Assembly: GCA_945860955.1 (NCBI GenBank)
Contig: CAMATH010000046.1
Span: 1-57,766 of the forward strand
Length of the DNA: 57,766 bases
Direction of reading: 5' to 3'
Source: Planctomicrobium piriforme
Lineage (GTDB): Bacteria > Planctomycetota > Planctomycetia > Planctomycetales > Planctomycetaceae
In this document: piece by piece, positions 2-12,001 of the stretch
How the letters are laid out: each line of letters opens with the position of its first letter
How positions within the stretch are numbered: the stretch's first letter is position 1
Notes under the pieces: model-generated
Database searches by the model: none
Told to the model about the DNA's origin: nothing
What the model saw: the letters and a program-made list of their open reading frames with translations, nothing else
Position numbers and translations under genes: made by a program

Positions 2-619
2 AAGCGGGGATTCGATCTGTTCTGTACTGTCGAAACCTATGAGCAGTTGCGTTTCACCCTTGGCAGCCACGTCGTGGATTTCGGGCGTTCTGATCCCGAG
101 TTGCCTTGTTGTGTCCCCCCGCGGGAAGCGGTTGACTTCTGGATCATCGGCGGCTGCGGCGGAACCAGCGGTGGCGCGCTCGATCCGGCCATCAAGTTGA
201 TTCACGATGTCGCCCAACAGCGGAACATTCAACATCCTCGAGTCAATGTCCTCCTGATCGGCGCGGAAATCTCGTTGGGCGACCGGACCCGATCCGTCAC
301 GACAAAACAGCAGCAAGTCGTGCGGGCGACCGCTGCGGGACTGGTCTGCAAACTCGCTGGTGACATGGCCAACTCGCAGCCAATTGATGAAACCCGGCCG
401 GACGGCACCTCGTTTTCCGTGTCCTCCAGTGATCGAGTCTGGTCTTTGCTTCTGGCCGACCAGACGAACGGCCAAGCTGACTGCTCGACGGTTGACGGAC
501 TGATCCGTGTCGTCGTCGAGGCATTGTTTCCGCGGCTGTTCACCATGGCTGGCATCCATCTCGGAGATCGTTTCAAGGACTTCGTTGAACTTGGCTCCAC
601 TGGACGCGGCCAACTCTAA
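2..619 (+). CDS. Tubulin/FtsZ-like protein, 5' truncated by window edge
   Basis: The frame is open to the first bases of the window, so the N-terminus is missing; the first internal start codon is a TTG at 47. About 205 residues are visible. A hydrophobic strand leads into IIGGCGGTSGGAL, which resembles the tubulin/FtsZ phosphate-binding signature (GGGTGSG) but has Ser for one Gly. A helix and a second strand (VNVLLIGAE) follow, as expected for that fold. Seen: the motif and the order of secondary structure. Inferred: membership of the bacterial tubulin-like families. It is the first visible gene of a four-gene run, 16 bp before the next gene. Another Rossmann-like nucleotide-binding protein is possible. 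The partner N-terminal G-box residues cannot be checked because they lie outside the window. Confidence 0.5.
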   Translation, partial: KRGFDLFCTVETYEQLRFTLGSHVVDFGRSDPELPCCVPPREAVDFWIIGGCGGTSGGALDPAIKLIHDVAQQRNIQHPRVNVLLIGAEISLGDRTRSVTTKQQQVVRATAAGLVCKLAGDMANSQPIDETRPDGTSFSVSSSDRVWSLLLADQTNGQADCSTVDGLIRVVVEALFPRLFTMAGIHLGDRFKDFVELGSTGRGQL

Positions 620-635
620 CCGCAAGGTCATTATC

Positions 636-2519
636 ATGGAACTCCGGCCGACTCACTACAAATTCGTTCCCTCGCAGGTCGATTCTCTCGGTGCGACAGT
701 ACTGAGATATCCCTTCCCTGAAATCTGGGACCACTACGAACGTGGCTTCCACAGGACTGTCATTGAGCATCTGTGTACGACGCATGGGCATCACACATCG
801 CAATTGGAACTCCTCGATCAGGCACATCTGACTCACGAGGCAATCTGCCTCGACGAATGGTTCCAGGACTACCGTCCTCCCATTCTGCGATTCCGATGGG
901 ATGTTGAAACCCTCACGAAACTCGCCTTGACCGCTGACGATCTGGCTCACGATGACGGACAATGGAAAAGTGACGCACTCGATCTAGATCGCCCGATCCA
1001 GACTGCGACTGCCGAGATCCGCCGGCGAATTCAGAATTTGCGACGACTCACCCAAGCTGAATCCGGACCGGACGCCGCGGTCGGCACACTCGAGGCACTC
1101 CGTACCAACTGGCTAACATTACGAACAGAATGGATCGCGCCGGTCGACTGGACAACGCGCCATGCCGACGAATTGCAGGACACGGCTCGGATCCTGCGAA
1201 ACGCAAGGCAGCCGCGCCAGTTTCACTACCGTACTCTTCTTTCGCTCCGCGCCCGTCTCAGCCCGCGGCGCTGGTTGACCGAAAGTGAACGGCAGATGAT
1301 CGAACGGCGCCTGTTTCCGCGGATTCAGCGTGCCGGCGAACTTCGATTTGAGCAGGAATTGCGCAGACGCCGCTGCCGGATCGCGGATGCGATTCTCGGG
1401 CGACCTGGCGCCCCAGGAATCCTGGACCAGATTCTTCAGGAAGTCGAATCCGATCGCACGTACTTCAAGTCACTGACGAACGTTTCCCATCGCGCCCGAA
1501 TCGAACGCGCCTCTCGGGAACCGGATGAGATTCTGCTGGTTGAGAGCCTGGACACGGTGATTGATGCGGACGGACAGCGGACATTGCTGGATCTCTACGA
1601 CGAACTCGTCCACAGGTCGGGATGCACTCCTGCCCGTCTCGCCGAGCAGCTTCTGGCGCAGGGACTATCGATTGAGGGTCGCCGTTACTTGCCGGCTGAG
1701 TGGCCCAGTCTGCCGCTGCCGCATGTACAACAGGGACTTCAAGCTGTCGTCGCTGGCTATCTCGGGTCTTCGAACCGGCGTACTCCAGTTCGGATTGATC
1801 AACCGCAGACGGCGTTCGACCACGCGGCCACCATTACACCGATGTCTCCGGAACTCGCCGCTGTACTGCGCGCCGCACTTCCACTTTGGATTCGCCAATC
1901 GAAGCCGTACGCCGAACATCAACACTTGAACGGCGCAGACCCCAGTCGGCACGCGTTTCTCTTTTGTTATCCACCTGACCGCCGTCGTTGGGAATCATTG
2001 CTCGTGGCGCACGTTCGCATGTCCAATGGGGACGTAGCGGTCGACGATGCTGTTACGTATGCCACGGCCCATCCGTACGTTGCAATCCTGTGTCATTATG
2101 CTGGATTTCCGGCCGGTGGCCTTCGATCACTCCCGTCATGGATTCTCCATAACCAGCAGCTCCGCCAGCAGGGGCGATTGGTGCCCCAGGTCGATCCGTC
2201 GAACTATCCCGAGATGCGACGTTTGTCGCATCGGCCCGATGACGCAGAAGACTGCCGACAGCTCTTTCAATCCGCGCTCAAGGCAAATGTGATCGTTCCC
2301 CTCGCGGGAGCCACGGGTCAATTCACGATCGCATTTGAATACGAAGGATTTGACAAGTCGCTGGGACTGAGTCAATCGGGGTTCGAGTCGAACCTTCTGG
2401 TGGACGACGACCTCTACAATTTCGTCTTCTGGCGCGTCCGCGACGCCCTGGACAAGGGACAGTTGACCGCCGCGGATGTGCCGCTGTTCGTTCGCAACTT
2501 TTCATCCCGCTCCCACTGA
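636..2519 (+). CDS. Unknown protein of mobile-element operon (627 aa)
   Basis: I recognise no domain. The frame is open from 507, but that start would overlap the preceding gene by over 100 bp. The ATG at 636 is preceded by AAGG at a suitable distance and begins MELRPTHYKF. The product is about 627 residues, soluble in appearance, charged and probably helical in its first half (many Arg/Leu/Glu heptad-like stretches), with no signal peptide or membrane segment. It lies between the tubulin-like gene and the membrane coiled-coil gene, with 16 bp and 8 bp gaps, so co-expression and shared function with those genes and the ATPase are likely. The real gene status is well supported; the function is unknown. 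Confidence 0.8.
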   Translation: MELRPTHYKFVPSQVDSLGATVLRYPFPEIWDHYERGFHRTVIEHLCTTHGHHTSQLELLDQAHLTHEAICLDEWFQDYRPPILRFRWDVETLTKLALTADDLAHDDGQWKSDALDLDRPIQTATAEIRRRIQNLRRLTQAESGPDAAVGTLEALRTNWLTLRTEWIAPVDWTTRHADELQDTARILRNARQPRQFHYRTLLSLRARLSPRRWLTESERQMIERRLFPRIQRAGELRFEQELRRRRCRIADAILGRPGAPGILDQILQEVESDRTYFKSLTNVSHRARIERASREPDEILLVESLDTVIDADGQRTLLDLYDELVHRSGCTPARLAEQLLAQGLSIEGRRYLPAEWPSLPLPHVQQGLQAVVAGYLGSSNRRTPVRIDQPQTAFDHAATITPMSPELAAVLRAALPLWIRQSKPYAEHQHLNGADPSRHAFLFCYPPDRRRWESLLVAHVRMSNGDVAVDDAVTYATAHPYVAILCHYAGFPAGGLRSLPSWILHNQQLRQQGRLVPQVDPSNYPEMRRLSHRPDDAEDCRQLFQSALKANVIVPLAGATGQFTIAFEYEGFDKSLGLSQSGFESNLLVDDDLYNFVFWRVRDALDKGQLTAADVPLFVRNFSSRSH

Positions 2520-2527
2520 GCGCGGCC

Positions 2528-3472
2528 ATGTCCTTGACTCTCTGGCGAACGGGACTTGCGCTCGGTTCCCTCGCACCACTGATACGGCACGCCTGGGACC
2601 GCATTCAGACGGTACTCGAGATCGTCGTCGAGGGGCCCGACGTCTGTTCGTCTGTTTTCGCATTGCTCATCCTGCTGTTCATCGGCGAGCGCGTGATCGC
2701 TGTTGAACCGCGGCTCCGACTCTGGACACACCGCGCCGCGCTCACGGTGTTCTTTCTGTATGTCGGTTGCAAAGTATGGCTGGTGCGACCGACCGACGGC
2801 GTGGAGGTTGTCGGAGTTTTGCTGCGGGGGTTGCTTGCTGCCTCCTGGTGCCTGGCCATCTCCCTGATCAGTTTACCTGTCGGGTTGTGGTCCTGGCGGC
2901 ATTCGGTGGGAGCGCTTGTTCAATCGGTTCTTAAACGAATTGGCAAAGCGCGACGCGCCAGAACCGACAGGCGTCAACGAATTGCTGACGCCGAGCGACG
3001 AAGACAGCTTCAAGCGGAAGACGAACGACTCGCTCCAGACCGCGAACGCCAGCAACAGGAGGCCGAACAAAGGAGCCGAGCGGAAGCGGCTCAGCGAATC
3101 GCCGATCAACGACGTCGCGAGGGGGTCCGCCTTGACTGTCAGTTATTGTACGACAGGAATCGATCGGTCCTGCGTGACAAGCTGACGGCGAAGCAGTTGC
3201 GCGACTATTTCGAGCGGTACCTCGCGGATGGATTTACTGCAGAGGAAGTCGAACGTCGGGGACAGGAGCTGAAGGCGATGATTTCGGCTGTGGTCGAGTC
3301 GGTCGGTCGCAAGAAGGGGCAGTTCGACAGCTTGAAGAGTCTGCGTGAGTACTATCGGGGTGAGCGAGATTCGATCGAGACGTCCGACTTCGCGGACGAA
3401 ATCAAGGGTTCTCTTTTGTCCGACCTGGCCCATGAGGAGGAGCGCGCGATCCGCGCGTTTCGTCAGATATGA
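2528..3472 (+). CDS. Membrane-anchored coiled-coil protein of mobile-element operon
   Basis: This 314-residue protein has a clear bipartite layout. The first part holds three hydrophobic segments, at about residues 41-58, 70-88 and 95-122, enough to span the membrane. It is followed by a long Arg/Glu/Gln-rich stretch at about 135-200 with strong coiled-coil character, then a mixed C-terminal domain. It starts 8 bp after the preceding stop, and its TGA overlaps the ATG of the ATPase gene (ATGA). That overlap suggests translational coupling and a physical partnership with the ATPase. A membrane scaffold for the ATPase, or an anchor for the tubulin-like protein, would fit, but this is inference. 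I do not recognise a named family. Confidence 0.8.
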   Translation: MSLTLWRTGLALGSLAPLIRHAWDRIQTVLEIVVEGPDVCSSVFALLILLFIGERVIAVEPRLRLWTHRAALTVFFLYVGCKVWLVRPTDGVEVVGVLLRGLLAASWCLAISLISLPVGLWSWRHSVGALVQSVLKRIGKARRARTDRRQRIADAERRRQLQAEDERLAPDRERQQQEAEQRSRAEAAQRIADQRRREGVRLDCQLLYDRNRSVLRDKLTAKQLRDYFERYLADGFTAEEVERRGQELKAMISAVVESVGRKKGQFDSLKSLREYYRGERDSIETSDFADEIKGSLLSDLAHEEERAIRAFRQI

Positions 3473-5220
3473 TTCCCATTCTACTTGGCAGCGACCTGGC
3501 AAACGACGAACGGGTGTACCTCGATCCGGAACTGTTTCGCACGCACTTCCATTTGATCGGCGCCACAGGGAGTGGCAAGAGCACGGCGCTCTTGTCGATG
3601 GTGCAACCACTGCTGATGCAGCCGGGGACCGAGAAGTGCTGCCTGTTCCTGATCGACCCAATGGGCAATCTGTCGCGGGACCTGCTGCGGTTCATCGCGC
3701 ACCCGCGATTCTGCCCTCAGCACGTGCGTGATCGGCTCGTCTACATCGAACCGGCCAACGAAAACTATGTACTCCCCTTCAATCCATTGACGCACACCAC
3801 GGAAGCGAGTCGCTACTACCAGACGATGCGGTCCGTCGACATTGTGCTGCGGGCCTGGGCGGCGCAGGATGTGAGCCAACAGCCCCGGCTGTTGCAGTGG
3901 ACATACAAGGCGTTCTGCGCTGCCGCCATGCTGGGGTATCCGATCGCCATGTGCCGGTACTTGTTGCACCCAGGCCAGCCGGAACACGAAGCGATCCTCC
4001 ACAAAATACCGGGCGACATCCGCTTCCAATGGCAGGACATCCTCCAGGCGCGGGGCAGTGAGGCGACCCGGATCCTGGAATCGGCCCGCAACCGACTTGA
4101 CCCGTTCTTCGAGTCGGTCAATCTCCGCCGAATGTTTGGCGCACGGACGGGGTTGTTCGACTGCGAACGGTTCATTCGCGAGCGCAAGGTGGTAATCGTC
4201 AACCTGGCAAAGTACGGGAAGATCCCAGGATTCATTTCCGACACCATCGGCAGCCTTGTCCTCAACGAGATCGTCGAGACCGCCAATCGAATGTCCACGC
4301 GGGACGGGCGAAGCGCCGTCGATCCGACGTATGTCGTCATGGATGAGTTCCAGAAATACGTCGGAGTCGACATCGAGGACGCACTCCCCACGGTCCGCCA
4401 GATGGGATTGCGGTTGATTCTGGCGCATCAATCGTTTTCGCAATTGGAACTGGAGGACGTCGATCTGACGCAGATGATCTGGCAGGCGCGGAGCCGGTTG
4501 ATGTTCACCAACAGCGCCCGAGATGCCGATCTGGTGGCGGACGAGCTGGCCAAACTGACGTTTGATTCCATGCGAATCAAGGACATGCGCACGAGTCGGA
4601 AGCAACTCATCGTCGGCTACCGCAAGGAGTGGCTCGATAGCGTCTCGTCGTCAACGAACAAATCGCACGGCACATCGGATCAAGATACGATCGGCTACAA
4701 CCAGTCGACGGGAGAGACGATGATCCCCGGACATTCGGACCCCACGCGAAGTCGGGGACATGGCGATCAGAATTCTCGTGCGACCGGTCGGACGTCGTCG
4801 AAAGGCGATGCCGAAACGCGAGGACAGAGTCAGGCGAACGTACCGATTCACGATACATTTGAAGAGGTCACCAACGTGACGTACCAGTCGTTTGAGGAGT
4901 GGTCGCTCGATTGGGGCAAGCGCATCCGCCAACTGCGTACAGGCGAGGCGTTCGCCATGTTCGCCAATAATCCGGGCGTGCATCAGATCGCGATCGAACA
5001 TCTTCCGATCTACGACACGCGCGACATGAAGGCCCGAGTCGAAGATCTGCTGGCAAAGAACTACGAATCCGAGTTCTTCCTCACTGCTGACGCAGCCGAT
5101 CGGGAAATCGCGGAATGCCGGCGGCTGCTTTTGCAGTCCCCCCCGATTGTAGTCACCACTACGGTCCCTGGATCGCAGGGACAGCAGCCGAAGTCCAGCA
5201 CCGACGTTCCGTTTCGCTGA
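3469..5220 (+). CDS. TraD/TcpA-type AAA+ ATPase, probable DNA-transfer coupling protein
   Basis: A P-loop NTPase of 583 residues. Walker A is GATGSGKST at residues 31-39. Walker B is a hydrophobic strand ending in MDEF, with Asp292 and Glu293. After it, a segment like LILAHQS fits the sensor region of HerA/FtsK/TraD-like motors. A Ser/Gly/Asn/Thr-rich linker at roughly 391-461 is inserted before the last domain; such low-complexity inserts are common in type IV secretion coupling-type ATPases of integrative elements. The gene overlaps the membrane coiled-coil gene by 4 bp. No transmembrane helix is present in this protein, so the neighbour may supply the anchor. Likely role: moving DNA, or remodelling a protein complex, at the membrane. 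The family call is strong; the exact substrate is unknown. Confidence 0.85.
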   Translation: MIPILLGSDLANDERVYLDPELFRTHFHLIGATGSGKSTALLSMVQPLLMQPGTEKCCLFLIDPMGNLSRDLLRFIAHPRFCPQHVRDRLVYIEPANENYVLPFNPLTHTTEASRYYQTMRSVDIVLRAWAAQDVSQQPRLLQWTYKAFCAAAMLGYPIAMCRYLLHPGQPEHEAILHKIPGDIRFQWQDILQARGSEATRILESARNRLDPFFESVNLRRMFGARTGLFDCERFIRERKVVIVNLAKYGKIPGFISDTIGSLVLNEIVETANRMSTRDGRSAVDPTYVVMDEFQKYVGVDIEDALPTVRQMGLRLILAHQSFSQLELEDVDLTQMIWQARSRLMFTNSARDADLVADELAKLTFDSMRIKDMRTSRKQLIVGYRKEWLDSVSSSTNKSHGTSDQDTIGYNQSTGETMIPGHSDPTRSRGHGDQNSRATGRTSSKGDAETRGQSQANVPIHDTFEEVTNVTYQSFEEWSLDWGKRIRQLRTGEAFAMFANNPGVHQIAIEHLPIYDTRDMKARVEDLLAKNYESEFFLTADAADREIAECRRLLLQSPPIVVTTTVPGSQGQQPKSSTDVPFR

Positions 5221-5638: not shown

Positions 5639-6558
5639 GACGGCAGAATATGCCGCCACGCAACATGCGCAAGTGAAATCGATTGACGAAATCGCATCGC
5701 CACGATTTGATCGCATCCAGAGGCCAACCCTTCGATCACACCGAACCACAAATCCCCTCTCCCGCGTCGATTGTTCGTCGCCGCTTCCGCGGCGTCTTGC
5801 GATCGGCGAGTGACCCCCGGTTGAATTCTGCGACTATTCCTCCGAGCAATCTGACGAGGCGAAGGCCGGTCGCGATGGGTACTAGCACCGAGTCCAAAGC
5901 TCGGTCCATAAGTGGGGCCAGCGGTGGGCCGGGGCGGAGCGCGCAGCCGGACCAGGCCCTGTGTGTGTATGTTGTTGCCCCCCAGCCGTTTCGGGTCGCC
6001 AGGGGTCAGTCGGCTGCGGCCTCGTGACCCCTGGCTAGGGTTGATGCGTTCCAGGGGGTCTAAGCGTTCGCGTTGCTCACGCTTATTCTGCCTGCCAGTG
6101 GTCGGACGGTCCACGGCCGCGCTTTCCACCAACCCTAGCCAGGGGTGCCCCCTGGCGACCCCTGCTCGACCGCTGGCTGGTTGTGCTGCCCGTTTTTCGC
6201 ACGAGTCCGGTTTGCGCGGTCTCGCACTCGGCCTGGCGGCCGAGGGAAACGGCCCCCCTTTGTGTGTGTTGGTGTGGGTTGTGTGTGTTTTGTCGAGTGG
6301 GTTTCGATGGGTTGGCTCGCGATCTCGGGAGTGTAGCGGGGCCGGTCCCTTCGGCCGTCAAGGGAAGCTTGTCGGCCGGCGTGGGCAACGGTTGCTGTCG
6401 CGATGCTCCGCAACCGGCACGCCGGCTCCCGCGCGGCCGCGAGGAGCGACCGACGGCGCGTGGGCGACGCGCCCCCTGTGACGGCGGGCTGCGGCCCCGC
6501 TGTGCTGCCGGTGCATCGTCGCAGAGCGCGACGGGCGTTTCTATTTCCTTTTCTACCC
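5639..6558. other. 920 bp gene-free region with inverted repeats and a GT-rich tract
   Basis: No convincing gene is present; the open frames here are Arg/Pro/Ser-rich and conflict with each other. The stretch holds a small hairpin (ACCGAG at 5887-5892, CTCGGT at 5900-5905), the large inverted repeat described separately at 5993-6161, and a strongly GT-biased tract at about 6257-6300. Its place between the operon and the accessory genes would suit a transfer or replication origin, but that is inference only. Confidence 0.5.
5993..6161. repeat. Nested long inverted repeat (REP-like or origin-like)
   Basis: The outer arms GGGTCGCCAGGGG (5993-6005) and its exact reverse complement (6149-6161) enclose inner arms ACCCCTGGCTAGGGTTG (6027-6043) and its exact reverse complement (6130-6146). 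CCAGGGGTC (5999-6007) can also pair with GACCCCTGG (6026-6034), which gives an alternative local hairpin. Near the centre is a third stem, TAAGCGT (6061-6067) with ACGCTTA (6079-6085). Such nested symmetry is unlikely by chance. It could be a dispersed palindromic repeat or a functional origin. Confidence 0.75.
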
Positions 6559-7047
6559 ATGACCGCGAACAGAACACATCATCGGCGAAACACAAACAGC
6601 AAGACTCACGTCCAGGAGACGCCGCACGGAGTCGACGTCTTTCAATCTCATTGGAATTGCCAGTGCGCGAGATGCGCCAAGAAACGCGCAGCCGTGCATC
6701 GGCTCGTCGATTCCTTCTCGCAGATTCCGGCCGACTGGATCCGTGAGTTGGCCGAGCATCAGGGAGAAACCCTGGCGATCCCGATGTGGGGTACGGTCTT
6801 CGCGCCGCACGATGGATCAGACGCTGCCGCCATTCGCCGGCTCTGTCGGCCGATTGCCGGCGCCGAAGGTGACGCCGACATGGAAAGCTTGACCGCCAGC
6901 GGTTGGGAAGCTGTCGCCGAGACGGGCATTCTGGCCGTGACGTTCGACGAGGTATTACTCCTCGGTATTCATGGCGCTGGATACGACTTCTACGCCGACC
7001 ATTGGGAGCCGCTGTACAATGCGCTCGGCTACCACTGGCATCGGTGA
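6559..7047 (+). CDS. Accessory protein of unknown function (162 aa)
   Basis: The frame is open from 6403, but the first 52 residues are Arg/Pro-rich and look non-coding. The ATG at 6559 (MTANRTHH) starts the protein-like part. A CQCARC-type Cys cluster near residues 36-41 could bind a metal. The C-terminal half (WEAVAETGILAVTFDEVLLL, then an aromatic-rich GYDFYADHW segment) looks globular. There is no Shine-Dalgarno sequence; a pyrimidine-rich tract lies directly before the start codon. It is the first of a series of small accessory genes in the integrated element. I do not recognise a family. Confidence 0.65.
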   Translation: MTANRTHHRRNTNSKTHVQETPHGVDVFQSHWNCQCARCAKKRAAVHRLVDSFSQIPADWIRELAEHQGETLAIPMWGTVFAPHDGSDAAAIRRLCRPIAGAEGDADMESLTASGWEAVAETGILAVTFDEVLLLGIHGAGYDFYADHWEPLYNALGYHWHR

Positions 7048-7091: not shown

Positions 7092-7250
7092 ATGGAAAAT
7101 CCCTACATCACACCCGAACATCAGGAAATCCTGGACCGCGTCGCGTCAAACCCAGGGTATTACGTCGACGCCTGCCCGCAGTGCAGTCTGCCGCATCCCT
7201 CGTGCGAATGCCCGTTGGCGATCCACGAAGCGAAGCGTCGATCGAAATGA
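7092..7250 (+). CDS. Small Cys-cluster (zinc-ribbon-like) protein
   Basis: A 52-residue protein starting at the ATG at 7092 (MENPYITPEH). It contains CPQC followed by CEC, four or five Cys within about 15 residues, which suggests zinc binding. It starts 44 bp after the previous stop, and the intervening DNA is T/C-rich. A strong rho-independent terminator follows 40 bp downstream, so it is probably the last gene of a short transcript with the 162-residue protein. The size and Cys pattern fit small DNA-binding or regulatory proteins of mobile elements; no family is recognised. Confidence 0.55.
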   Translation: MENPYITPEHQEILDRVASNPGYYVDACPQCSLPHPSCECPLAIHEAKRRSK

Positions 7251-7290
7251 TCGAGACGGGATTGCGGGCGACGGATTGATTCAAACCGCC

Positions 7291-7325
7291 ACGCCTCACG
7301 GTGAACCGCCGTGGGGCGTTTTTTT
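7291..7325 (+). terminator. Rho-independent terminator
   Basis: Stem ACGCCTCACGG (7291-7301) pairs with CCGTGGGGCGT (7309-7319) with one G-U pair, a 7-base loop, and a T run at 7319-7325. It follows the small Cys-cluster gene. The 350 bp from 7251 to 7600 contains no other feature that I can support. Confidence 0.85.
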
Positions 7326-7600
7326 GTGCTCGCCGGAATCGGGACCAGAATTCGCAGCCAGTTGATTTTTTTGAGAATTGTCGCTTGATTTCTAACGGAT
7401 CGATGGTACAAATAATCTATCGACCACTTTGTGGTTGCCTCCGGGACATCCACGTGTCCGCCACGGCACCTGCCGTGAAGACCGTTCGACCGGTTGTACC
7501 TTCATCCCGATCTCGGGATCGTTTCCACCGAGCCGTGTCCAATTTTCGGACCGTCGCTCGGTGCTCTTTTTTCCAGGGAGACGATCATCCGAGGTTCGCT

Positions 7601-8512
7601 ATGCCGATCACGGCTTTCGACATTCAACTGCTCAAGGCACTCGCCCAGTACTACGTGCTGACGCGCGAGCAACTGCAGCGGCATTGTTTCCCCGGACACA
7701 GCACCGGACGAACCACGCGGAAGCGGCTGCTCAAGCTGCAAAATGCGGGGTACATTCACAAGCATCGCATGCCGGTCGCGTATCCCGGGACGACCGGCGC
7801 CGCGCCTGTCTATTACGTCACGAAGAGTGGGGCCGAGCTCCTGGCGTCGTGGTTTGATGACGACACGTACCGGTTGATCAACACTCGTTGTCCACGGGGC
7901 GACCGCCTGAACCATTGGATCGCCACAAACGAAACGAGGATGGTGATCGAGCAGGCGATCGCGGGACAGACAGAAGTCACGCTCGGTCGCTTTATCAACG
8001 AATGGGAAACAGTCGACAAGAACGCCGCCGAGAGTCAGCAATTCACATTGCATACCCAGCTCATCCAGGATCCTCCGCTGTCGTGCAGCCCCGATGCCGG
8101 CTTTCTTCTCTGCATGCGAGGACACCGCAAGGTATTCTACCTGGAAAGGGATTTGGGGACGTCCAGTCCCCGGCAGGTCGCGGCCCGAAAGTCGCGAGGC
8201 TATGCCGAGCTGGCAGCAAGGCAGGGACATCGACGACATTTTCCCGAGACGACGCTCGATGTCTTCGGAGTGCTGTGCGTCACGACGACCGCCTACCGCT
8301 GCGAACAGATGGCAAAGCACATCTCCAAACGCCAGCGTCCGGATCTCTGGTTATTCGTTGATGAACATGAACTGACTCCCGAGAGCTTTCTGTTCGGGTC
8401 CATCACAATGGATCACCAGCGAAAGCGCGGGGCGTTGATCAAGTTGCCTTCGACGAGTTCGGTGGTGACCGTGGAAGCTGCCGTGACGAACGAGGCGGAC
8501 GATGATGATTGA
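7601..8512 (+). CDS. Replication-relaxation family protein
   Basis: A 303-residue protein of the Replic_Relax type (PF13814 by recognition), a family typical of plasmids and integrative elements that is linked to replication or mobilisation. The N-terminal winged-helix part (residues 1-75) runs from ALAQYYVLTREQL through TTRKRLLKLQNAGYI to a VYYVTKSGAELL ending, the usual signature. The C-terminal part, with conserved-looking SPDAGFLL and KVFYLERDLGT segments, resembles the nuclease-like half seen in this family. The ATG at 7601 has GAGG upstream; the 100-residue open extension before it is non-coding in composition. The protein supports calling the region a mobile element. Confidence 0.85.
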   Translation: MPITAFDIQLLKALAQYYVLTREQLQRHCFPGHSTGRTTRKRLLKLQNAGYIHKHRMPVAYPGTTGAAPVYYVTKSGAELLASWFDDDTYRLINTRCPRGDRLNHWIATNETRMVIEQAIAGQTEVTLGRFINEWETVDKNAAESQQFTLHTQLIQDPPLSCSPDAGFLLCMRGHRKVFYLERDLGTSSPRQVAARKSRGYAELAARQGHRRHFPETTLDVFGVLCVTTTAYRCEQMAKHISKRQRPDLWLFVDEHELTPESFLFGSITMDHQRKRGALIKLPSTSSVVTVEAAVTNEADDDD

Positions 8513-10221: not shown

Positions 10222-10488
10222 ATGTCCCAGAAACGGGTCAACAAACCGGAGAAAGTGCTGCGGATCGGCTTCGTGTCGGCTTCCATCTTCGCCCACGATG
10301 TGGAATCGGAAGAGGGGAAGCGGACCATGCGGAGCGTCAGCGTGCAGAAGCGTTACCTGGATGGCACGGAGGTCAAATACACGTCGTCGTTCAGTCTGGC
10401 CGAACTGCCGCAGGCGTTGCGCGTTCTCGACCTGGCGCTGCGCTACGTCGAGGGGCGCGAAGCGGAAATCGAGCTGAACCGTGAATGA
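10222..10488 (+). CDS. Small accessory protein, paralogue of the 8661 gene
   Basis: An 88-residue protein that aligns along its length with the product at 8661-8933 (see that entry), including the SASIF strand, the VSVQKRY strand and the C-terminal Leu-rich helix. It has a good GGAGTAGG ribosome binding site, unlike its paralogue. It lies 46 bp before the excisionase-like gene, so the two may be co-transcribed. Function is unknown. The presence of two diverged copies in one element suggests either separate partners or an old duplication. Confidence 0.8.
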   Translation: MSQKRVNKPEKVLRIGFVSASIFAHDVESEEGKRTMRSVSVQKRYLDGTEVKYTSSFSLAELPQALRVLDLALRYVEGREAEIELNRE

Positions 10489-10534
10489 TCGCGCATCTCA
10501 GCAAGGTTCATCCCCGGAAGGAAGGAGATGCGGC

Positions 10535-10762
10535 ATGCTCAAGGTGAACCAGGTCGCCGGCCGGCTGAACATCTCGGAGTCGAAAGTCTACGAACTGGTC
10601 GAGGGTGGGAAGCTCGCTCACCACCGGATCGGCGGAGCGATCCGCGTCAGCGAAGAACAGCTCGCGGAGTTTCTGGAGGAAACGAAGCGAGAGCGGTCCG
10701 CGGACTCGGATTCGAAAAAGTCCCGGGCCTCCCGCCCGCGTCTCAAACACGTGCGGATTTGA
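10535..10762 (+). CDS. Excisionase-like helix-turn-helix DNA-binding protein
   Basis: A 75-residue protein with a MerR-like/HTH_17 domain across residues 1-52: the pattern LKVNQVAGRLNISESKVYELV, then GKLAHHRIGGAIRVSEEQLAEFL is typical. A basic Lys/Arg-rich tail follows. The ATG at 10535 has an AAGGAG at 10522-10527; a GTG 54 bp upstream has no such site. It is convergent with the integrase gene, 37 bp away, with a terminator between. By position and family it is the likely recombination directionality factor (Xis), though a repressor role cannot be excluded. Confidence 0.85.
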   Translation: MLKVNQVAGRLNISESKVYELVEGGKLAHHRIGGAIRVSEEQLAEFLEETKRERSADSDSKKSRASRPRLKHVRI

Positions 10763-10769
10763 TCCCGTC

Positions 10770-10800
10770 CCCGCCCCACGGAAGGGGCGGGCCTTTCTTT
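10770..10800 (+). terminator. Rho-independent terminator between xis-like and integrase genes
   Basis: Stem CCCGCCCC (10770-10777) pairs perfectly with GGGGCGGG (10784-10791) across loop ACGGAA, followed by CCTTTCTTT. It ends + strand transcription of the excisionase-like gene and touches the integrase stop codon. Confidence 0.8.
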
Positions 10801-11789
10801 CATCCCACCTTCTTGACCGACTCGAGCAAGTAGTCGGGAGCATGCGAGAGATGCGAATAGACGCGGGCAATCATCGTCGGATCGGAATGCCCCATCAGCA
10901 CCGAGACCGTCAGGGCATCGACGCCAGCTTTGAGCATGCGATGGCACCAAGTGTGGCGAAACGCAGTCAGGCAGTATTTCACCTGCAGTTTGCGTTGGAT
11001 GCGAACGAAGGCGCAGTTGACCGCCTCGGTGGTCCAGGGACTGTCGGTGGAATTCCGGAACAACGGACCGTCAGGAAACCTGGCCGACAACCGACGGATA
11101 ATTCCCTCCGCGTCGTCGTTGAGATACAGAATTCGCGGAATCCGCTGCATCTTTTCCTCGGCCACCGGAAAGACGATGCGATGGTTGGGCAAATCGACGT
11201 GTCGCTTCTCGATCGCCAGGATCTCGGCCGCACGGGCACCCGTGTTCCAGGCGAACTCAATCAGATCGCGCCAGTACTGCCGAGGGACGCAGTGGATGAT
11301 TCGCTGGTACTCTTCTTCGGAGATCACCTGCTCTCGTTTGCCGCCCCGCGGCTTTTTGAAATGGCGGATCGGAGAACGATCGATCAGCCCCTGTTCCTCA
11401 CACCACGTCATGCAGCGCATGATCGACCTGGCGTAGTTCCGTTTGCTTCCGGACGAGAGCTCGAACGAGTCGATCCACTGTTGAACGTGGAACGGTTTCA
11501 GGGCACTCGCGAGCAGGTCGGGATGCCGATCGACGAACGTCTGCAGGCGGGACTGGTACCAGATGTACGTCTCGGCGGCCCGGTGCTTCTGGGTCCAGTC
11601 GAGGAACGCATCGATGAGAGCAGCGACGGAGTCCCCACGAACCTTGGGGGCTTCCTTCGGCTGTCGCATGAGCCGGTAGTAGTGATCGAACGCCGCTTCC
11701 CGATCGTCTCCAAGCGGGATCTGCTTCCCGTCGAGAGTCAGGTACCAACCGCGTCCACTACGAAACCAGGGCTTCGAAAACTTCGGCAT
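10800..11789 (-). CDS. Tyrosine recombinase / integrase of the mobile element
   Basis: A 329-residue phage-type integrase. The N-terminal part carries a core-binding SAM-like domain (about 50-140). The catalytic domain shows Arg186 in NTGARAAE, a TAFRHTW box with Arg278, the GHSD box with His301, and the nucleophile Tyr311 in RVYSHL. The usual His of the H-x-x-R box is Thr275 here, a substitution that may be tolerated. The ATG at 11789 (MPKFSKPWFR) is preferred over the upstream frame start. The gene is next to the 3' end of tRNA-Arg, the usual arrangement for site-specific integration, and convergent with the xis-like gene. Confidence 0.95.
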   Translation of the reverse strand: MPKFSKPWFRSGRGWYLTLDGKQIPLGDDREAAFDHYYRLMRQPKEAPKVRGDSVAALIDAFLDWTQKHRAAETYIWYQSRLQTFVDRHPDLLASALKPFHVQQWIDSFELSSGSKRNYARSIMRCMTWCEEQGLIDRSPIRHFKKPRGGKREQVISEEEYQRIIHCVPRQYWRDLIEFAWNTGARAAEILAIEKRHVDLPNHRIVFPVAEEKMQRIPRILYLNDDAEGIIRRLSARFPDGPLFRNSTDSPWTTEAVNCAFVRIQRKLQVKYCLTAFRHTWCHRMLKAGVDALTVSVLMGHSDPTMIARVYSHLSHAPDYLLESVKKVG

Positions 11790-11848
11790 GACGATTCTCC
11801 AGCTTGAACCTTGAACCACCAAGGGTGAGCCAGAGTGCTCGCTCGTCG

Positions 11849-11927: not shown

Positions 11928-11947
11928 TATCCCCGAGTGGATTCGAA
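11928..11947. other. Probable attachment site (att) at tRNA-Arg 3' end
   Basis: The integrase gene lies 138 bp from the tRNA 3' end, and all mobile-type genes lie on that side. The tRNA remains intact, as expected when the element brings its own copy of the 3' end. I see no second copy of this segment in the window, so the other boundary must be upstream of position 1. Exact ends are inferred. Confidence 0.5.
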
Positions 11948-12001
11948 CCACCAACCTTCGGCTCCGGAGGCCGACGCTCTATCCAATTGAGCTACGGAGA
12001 C
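11928..12001 (-). tRNA. tRNA-Arg (anticodon CCG)
   Basis: On the minus strand, acceptor GTCTCCG pairs with CGGGGAT (two G-U type pairs) with discriminator A. The anticodon arm TCGGC-CTCCGGA-GCCGA gives anticodon CCG. The T arm contains GGTTCGAATCC. CCA is not encoded. The 3' end faces the integrase gene. Confidence 0.95.

Follow-up and report, generated by a model that had tools for sequence, protein, structure and literature searches.

What is a tubulin-like gene doing beside a DNA-motor ATPase, on an integrative element, in a planctomycete with no recognisable FtsZ? The question is raised by contig CAMATH010000046.1 (C46) of Planctomicrobium piriforme (assembly GCA_945860955.1), whose 57,766 nucleotides are the whole of the window analysed here and which belongs to an 8.4-Mb, 98.9% complete planctomycete genome. 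Four genes follow one another on its forward strand: a tubulin/FtsZ-like GTPase-domain fragment (P1, 2..619), a 627-aa protein of no assigned family (P2, 636..2519), a membrane-anchored coiled-coil protein with a conserved C-terminal domain (P3, 2528..3472), and an ATPase of the VirD4/TraD/HerA class (P4, 3469..5220). The ATG at 636, 16 bp after P1, was taken as the start of P2 (the longest open reading frame, or ORF, starts with GTG at 507), P3 begins 8 bp after P2, and P3 and P4 share a 4-bp ATGA overlap, which bears out the tight packing (overlaps, or gaps below 20 bp) described by a first-pass annotation. Our preferred reading, to which we give about an even chance, is that a divergent, apparently split FtsZl1 module fills a slot, regulatory or cargo, in front of a DNA-transfer core on an integrative element.

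The P3-P4 core and the slot upstream of it

Coupling proteins such as TraD carry their own transmembrane segment, which holds the ATPase at the membrane within one chain. P4 resembles VirD4 and TraD in its ATPase core, with Walker A (GATGSGKST) and Walker B (YVVMDEF) motifs and Pfam matches over cut-off to TrwB_AAD_bind, FtsK_SpoIIIE, DUF87 and TraG-D_C (T4SS-DNA_transf is just under). However, P4 has no transmembrane segment, and the same-chain N-terminal anchor of VirD4/TraD is absent; the membrane part is a separate protein, P3, with two hydrophobic segments (residues 39-57 and 102-120). P3 was modeled as one very long helix (predicted local distance difference test, pLDDT, 81; predicted template modeling score 0.34), and a fold search with it gave no match at E ≤ 0.001. 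The membrane coiled-coil partner and the DNA-motor ATPase of the first-pass annotation are both upheld.

A scan of genome contigs with P4 alone gave ten loci. Six were near relatives, with 64-79% identity over the best segment; in the other four (Bartonella, Alistipes) the match was limited to the P-loop region, and these were dropped. Plasmids gave two relatives of P4, only 24% identical and in unrelated settings, and no relative of P3 or P4 was found in viral contigs. A P3 profile matched seven of 392 phylum genomes (two of the seven weakly and outside the family) and, at E ≤ 0.001, 22 of 170 family genomes, in 33 places including its own. The 32 other loci were fetched, and the contig ends at P3 in three, leaving 29 that could be examined for P4. 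It lies downstream of P3 on the same strand in 26 of the 29 (the match in L075 is weak, E = 1e-5); the distance is no more than 30 bp in 23, and 19 repeat the 4-bp overlap. Of the 24 loci whose right flank extends 3 kb or more, 17 have a Replic_Relax gene downstream on the same strand; in L073 such a gene lies upstream. P3 and P4 therefore form a constant core, commonly followed by a Replic_Relax protein. In L066 (G442:C207), P3 and P4 lie tail to tail on opposite strands, as if locally inverted.

The gene before P3 is exchangeable. A same-strand gene that could be assigned ends less than 200 bp from P3, or overlaps its start, in 19 of the 32 loci. These genes encode kinases in three loci (L050, scanned as L005; L053; L079), a lipoprotein family in five (L055, L059, L064, L068, L075), large vWA proteins in three (L062, L063, L078; PF13519 was tested for L062), FGE proteins in three (L066, L069, L071), TPR proteins in two (L054 by Pfam, L056 by likeness), and a small protein without an assigned family in three (L049, L057, L058). 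The lipoproteins are mutually related (BLASTP E of 1.1e-19 or better for every pair), but a vWA match was obtained only in L055 and below cut-off (E = 0.0014), and a DxSxS-like stretch is absent in two. In the other 13 loci the neighbor is on the opposite strand, more distant, unassigned or cut off. In L055, L059, L062, L063 and L078, which represent three lineages, P3 starts 4 bp inside the end of a vWA-type gene. Some genomes (G442, G315) have several elements with differing upstream modules. Other genes were also seen at these loci. In L080 (G315:C135), a reverse transcriptase (PF00078, E = 1.3e-23) lies upstream of P3 beside an FGE-domain gene. In L007, a gene reading like an ADP-ribosyltransferase (PARP-like; 7126-8076, reverse strand) is inserted between P3 and P4, and a reverse transcriptase, by sequence reading, lies downstream of P4, again beside an FGE-domain gene.

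A tubulin-like gene was found in three of the 32 other loci, all in one genus; seven loci are uninformative on this point (two cut at P3, five with less than 1.1 kb upstream). When slot labels were placed on a P4 tree (26 rows, L055 and L075 being excluded by length or E-value; nine labels, including "none," "other," and "cut"), 18 changes were counted against a shuffled mean of 19.4, and 40 of 200 shuffles gave a count as low, indicating that the slot is freely exchanged. The window groups with L051 (support 100/99), well away from L062 and L063. Branches with good support require the tubulin label to change at least twice, so it was gained more than once or lost. The slot may thus hold a kinase, vWA-type, FGE-lectin or TPR protein or, rarely, a tubulin-like pair. 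The first-pass annotation had raised the possibility of a distinct system and suggested a co-occurrence check of the four genes; P3 and P4 do recur as a pair, but the tubulin-like gene is rare and elsewhere confined to one genus, and these loci lend no support to a fixed set of four.

One alternative is that the genes before P3 are passengers, such as FtsZl1-vWA-kinase conflict systems, while P3 and P4 serve the element alone. We regard this as possible but doubtful. The almost free turnover of upstream modules on the P4 tree favors it, as does the presumed other arm of the element (below), whose nine caspase-like ORFs, six of them with an FGE-like motif, are typical conflict cargo. Tubulin-vWA systems have also been predicted to act as conflict systems (Kaur et al., 2020, PMC7159879). 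The DO-GTPase/GAP1-N2 systems of that source share with the present loci a tubulin domain with a coiled coil, vWA proteins, membrane association, and exchangeable parts. They differ in that no DO-GTPase or GAP1 was seen among the genes read or scanned here, with no search aimed at them, and in that the constant part here is a putative DNA pump tied to an integrase and Replic_Relax. The 19 loci with an assigned same-strand gene close to or across the P3 start argue against passengers, as do the five 4-bp overlaps, which repeat that between P3 and P4, since translational coupling is not required of cargo inserted at random.

A defense system, with a variable upstream sensor and a constant membrane protein and DNA-pump effector, appears quite unlikely. 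In its favor, sensors of diverse types, in some loci next to reverse transcriptases (L080, L007), flank one constant pair. P4 also matches the PADLOC model mad8 (E = 1.3e-11), although mad8 may match P4 only as an ATPase of its class. The matches listed in a literature search for the mad8 system were only unrelated papers. Conflict-system sensors diversified by diversity-generating retroelements have been discussed (PMC10907252), in a paper whose main text mentions neither tubulin nor FtsZ. Against defense, the pair is accompanied by Replic_Relax and often by integrases, which are element housekeeping.

The tubulin-like module

The 2010 description of FtsZl1 proteins drew on sequence and gene context, and their systems were predicted to remodel membranes (Makarova and Koonin, 2010, PMC2875224). 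No paper testing the role of FtsZl1 was found among the matches listed for the name. As the first-pass annotation had stated for many planctomycetes, canonical FtsZ (PF00091) has no match in the genome of the window. None of 25 genomes searched had a match over cut-off (11 had weak matches at E ≤ 1), while 13 of 14 control genomes did match.

P1 has 205 residues and no start codon, being open at the contig edge; its 5' part, including the place of a T1 loop, lies off the contig because the window is all of C46. Residues 50-58 (about 149..175, forward strand) form a T4-like GTP-binding loop, GGCGGTSGG, which, as the variant GGTSGG, aligns with GGTGSG, GGTGGG and GGTASG of FtsZl1 proteins. PF13809 matched 13 of 294 phylum genomes at E ≤ 0.001, in ten of them over cut-off, and ten proteins from this set served as the FtsZl1 reference. 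P1 matched its full-length profile with a probability (Prob) of 53.3 and its GTPase-domain profile with Prob 62.0, the T4 loop being in register along with the flanking strand and helix, a match that depends largely on the loop. Prob rose to 84.3 when one family member (L130) was added to the domain profile, but that protein came from P1's own search and is not independent. Against the domain profile P1 scored 39.4. The controls were 280 pieces taken from mechanically called ORFs in the fetched loci. Only two of them scored higher (52.3 and 51.4), both from X2, a tubulin-like protein described below; none of the other 278 exceeded 27.6, none of 200 shuffles exceeded 22.8, and the reversed sequence scored 19.5. 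Against the full-length profile P1 scored 39.6, compared with at most 35.0 for 150 controls (a pool that excluded ORFs with GGTG or GGAG) and at most 23.2 for 100 shuffles.

Other searches with P1 gave little. No convincing homologue was found in the 392 phylum or 170 family genomes, and no relative in plasmids, viral contigs or PDB. In the 170 genomes, an unrelated protein gave the best match (E = 0.0077, residues 114-185). The next one (E = 0.0135) hits a kinase-FtsZl1 protein at its T4 loop and is no more than suggestive because 69 of the 170 genomes match at E ≤ 1. A match in G272 (E = 3.2e-4) was dropped since no tubulin-like or P2-like ORF was seen in the locus. Family libraries gave nothing above cut-off for P1 or P2; the weak matches of P2 to CHASE3 (E = 0.034) and of P1 to heimdallarchaeosortase (E = 0.14) were set aside. 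A single-sequence AlphaFold2 model of P1 alone had pLDDT 37; its order (strand 44-51, helix 60-73, strand 79-86, helix 101-123) fits S4-H4-S5-H5 and was not used as proof.

A second, full-length case was found in two genomes of another genus (2 of the 170 family genomes), in the gene order X1-X2-vWA-P3-P4, where X2 is the tubulin-like protein. There are three copies of the X2 gene, one apparently split over two contigs, and in G443 the vWA neighbor is clear (PF13519, E = 2.3e-11), whereas in the window the side upstream of P1 lies off the contig. X2 matched the full-length FtsZl1 profile with Prob 93.1 (E = 3.2e-7, 237 columns), with its T1 loop (CGGVGLAAG) and T4 loop in register, and the domain profile with Prob 89.7; masking T4 left 77.7 and masking T1 left 50.1. 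Its sole Pfam match at E ≤ 1 was PF00091 (E = 0.1). In a scan of 82 same-strand upstream ORFs from the 32 loci, both complete copies of X2 stood out at 63.5 and 61.1, against 25.7 for the next best. This match of X2 to FtsZl1 places a tubulin-core pairing in two distant core lineages. The remaining copy, in G442 (C236/C220), appears split by contig ends within the tubulin-like gene, like the cut P1; similar copies in G442, 81-93% identical to that of G443, may explain the break.

The annotated FtsZ/tubulin likeness of the first protein thus stands as a profile match above all controls other than pieces of X2, in a fragment whose signal lies mostly in the T4 loop. P1 is likely the GTPase domain of a divergent FtsZl1 (Tubulin_2) protein, with moderate sequence evidence for the fragment and good evidence for X2. 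If P1 were not a tubulin and its glycine-rich loop had arisen by chance in a different alpha/beta fold, this would account for the concentration of the signal in the loop and for the lack of a confident model. We consider this improbable, as the flanking columns also align in register and outscore all 280 controls except two, both from X2, and as the slot of a distant lineage holds a more convincing tubulin-like gene.

P2 may be the remainder of a split FtsZl1 protein. P1/P2 and X1/X2 are separate ORFs, and the single chain of GTPase domain, coiled coil and helical C-terminus seen in FtsZl1 was not found. P2 scored no better than controls against the FtsZl1 C-terminal helical domain, and no convincing homologue of P2 was found in 294 phylum genomes; a match in G239 (E = 9.7e-4) was dropped, the locus having no visible tubulin-like or P2-like ORF. 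A motif spotted by eye in P2, X1, and the FtsZl1 C-terminus is not claimed (P2 12.8, X1 11.5, best of 75 controls 21.6).

The present proteins resemble FtsZl1/PF13809 Tubulin_2 in the GGGTG(S/T)G-type loop, the order of elements, the planctomycete hosts and, in the second case, the vWA neighbor. They differ in falling below the Pfam cut-off, in having GTPase domain and helical protein in separate genes, and in adjoining a membrane protein and a type IV coupling protein-class ATPase on an integrative element. A vWA-like protein stands beside the FtsZl1 gene in four of five chromosomal FtsZl1-type loci (L096 and L100 by motif, L098 and L104 by sequence reading; not L102), the arrangement described by Makarova and Koonin (2010). 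The P3 and P4 profiles had no match in the 11 PF13809-hit loci examined, some of which are short. In L100, a reverse transcriptase, by sequence reading, lies near the chromosomal FtsZl1-vWA pair, beside an FGE-domain gene. Locus L105 (G157:C32), in a member of the Planctomycetota from another family, encodes an FtsZ-like protein of 447 aa with loop GGGTGGG; its PF13809 match is below cut-off, as are those listed for G209 and G261, of which only the results table was read.

The integrative element and its presumed other arm

The part of the window from P1 to the integrase forms one end of an integrative element, the end that carries the integrase. The tyrosine integrase (10800..11822, reverse strand; PF00589, E = 3.8e-17) lies 105 bp from its integration site, a tRNA-Arg (CCG) gene (11928..12001, reverse strand), and is preceded by an excisionase-like HTH_17 protein (10481..10762, forward strand; PF12728, E = 2.4e-13). 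The 45 nt of the tRNA 3' half (11928-11972) are repeated on contig C8 (40089-40133), and a genome search with 22 nt of the repeat, allowing two mismatches, gave just these two places. An integrase beside a tRNA gene and a repeat of the tRNA 3' end at the presumed far end, the marks of a tRNA-integrated element, are thus both present, and the mobile context proposed in the first-pass annotation is supported. Integrases also lie at tRNA-Arg in L060 and L068, and in L062 4 bp from tRNA-Met. A search of the literature for planctomycete integrative or mobilizable elements with integrase and tRNA returned only a paper on type VI secretion genes in plasmids.

Between core and integrase, the window encodes a possible replication or nicking protein of the Replic_Relax family (7598..8512, forward strand; PF13814, E = 1.7e-21), a small conserved protein facing P4 (5246..5749, reverse strand; 38-55% identity in three other elements), and a conserved element protein of no assigned function (6403..7047, forward strand; relatives in L051, L062, L077, and in L069 at E = 1e-3).

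On one side of the C8 repeat are housekeeping-like genes (ribose-phosphate pyrophosphokinase and citrate synthase, by sequence reading). The other side (C8:1-40088) carries, by Pfam, a second Replic_Relax gene, a sigma-70-type factor, and a second coupling protein-like ATPase, and also an array of nine caspase-like ORFs (L125, L126), six of them with an FGE-like (lectin-fold) C-terminal motif; among three tested with Pfam, three matched Peptidase_C14 and two FGE-sulfatase. FGE domains of this kind are often targets of diversity-generating retroelements, but the ORFs read on this arm showed no reverse transcriptase. A single G443 contig unites X1-X2-vWA-P3-P4-Replic_Relax-integrase-tRNA-Met with a second ATPase and a second Replic_Relax gene, to which the C8 proteins are homologous (37.8% over 765 columns and 33% over 276 columns, respectively). 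Because of this homology, C8 and C46 are read as two arms of one element, which would be at least 52 kb, with both repeats probably bounding it. A direct join of C8:1 to window position 1 was rejected for lack of overlap or an open frame between the contigs.

A TubZ-type partition system keeping the excised element in the cell line is very improbable. TubZRC likewise places a tubulin-like GTPase on a mobile element, Replic_Relax on both arms suggests an extrachromosomal phase, and TubZ/TubY plasmid systems pair a tubulin with a partner able to bind membranes and DNA (PMC7762940). Against it, both P1 and X2 match FtsZl1, whose alignment was the one family tested with hhalign; nothing like TubR was seen beside P1, although no search was aimed at TubR; and 29 of the 32 sibling loci have no tubulin-like gene in their visible part.

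A possible mechanism and its meaning

ATPases of the P4 type form a ring and pump DNA. In the mechanism we propose, P3 would anchor P4 at the inner membrane, and together they would make a coupling pump in two parts, working on element DNA that Replic_Relax has processed; from family knowledge, Replic_Relax would act on the element's origin. The position of the upstream module and its 4-bp overlaps with P3 in five loci and three lineages suggest that it feeds into P3-P4; it might act at the envelope and control or protect the pumping step. A tubulin-like polymer would then be a GTP-dependent membrane scaffold rather than a motor. In its boldest form, which we think unlikely, the core would be a conjugation-type pump with a plug-in slot, in which unrelated envelope sensors, including split FtsZl1, decide when or to whom the element transfers.

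Several results weigh against a split FtsZl1 module in the slot of a transfer core, a reading that is least secure in the truncation of P1, the unsupported link of P2 to FtsZl1, and the proposed function. P1 is a fragment, and with the T4 loop masked its score drops to 24.4, within the control range; X2 with both loops masked falls to Prob 15.0. P1 and X2 do not match in a direct comparison (Prob 0.5), so the case for P1 rests on their common relation to FtsZl1, its place, and its neighbors. Both proteins are under Pfam cut-offs, PF13809 included, a PF13809 search of the window's own genome returned nothing, and the single-sequence search of the 170 family genomes with P1 gave noise-level E-values apart from P1 itself. 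P2 and X1 match neither one another nor the C-terminal part of FtsZl1. The core is also not invariable, as P4 is on the opposite strand in L066, only a weak one lies elsewhere in L074, and there is none in L076. C8 and C46 share neither overlap nor open frame, leaving the element ends unjoined. No type IV secretion channel gene was identified among the ORFs read or scanned, which did not include every gene, and the middle of the element is missing.

No paper describing the P1-P4 arrangement appeared among the matches listed in the open-access literature, and what is new here is an FtsZl1-type protein in a new partnership and location. A split-form FtsZl1 adjoining a DNA-transfer core in two distant core lineages would tie FtsZl1 to a definable, testable machine. 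The genes before the core are an exchangeable slot, and a family of integrative elements is described in these planctomycetes. In these hosts without a recognisable FtsZ, an unexplained bacterial tubulin family may thus be tied to gene transfer or defense.

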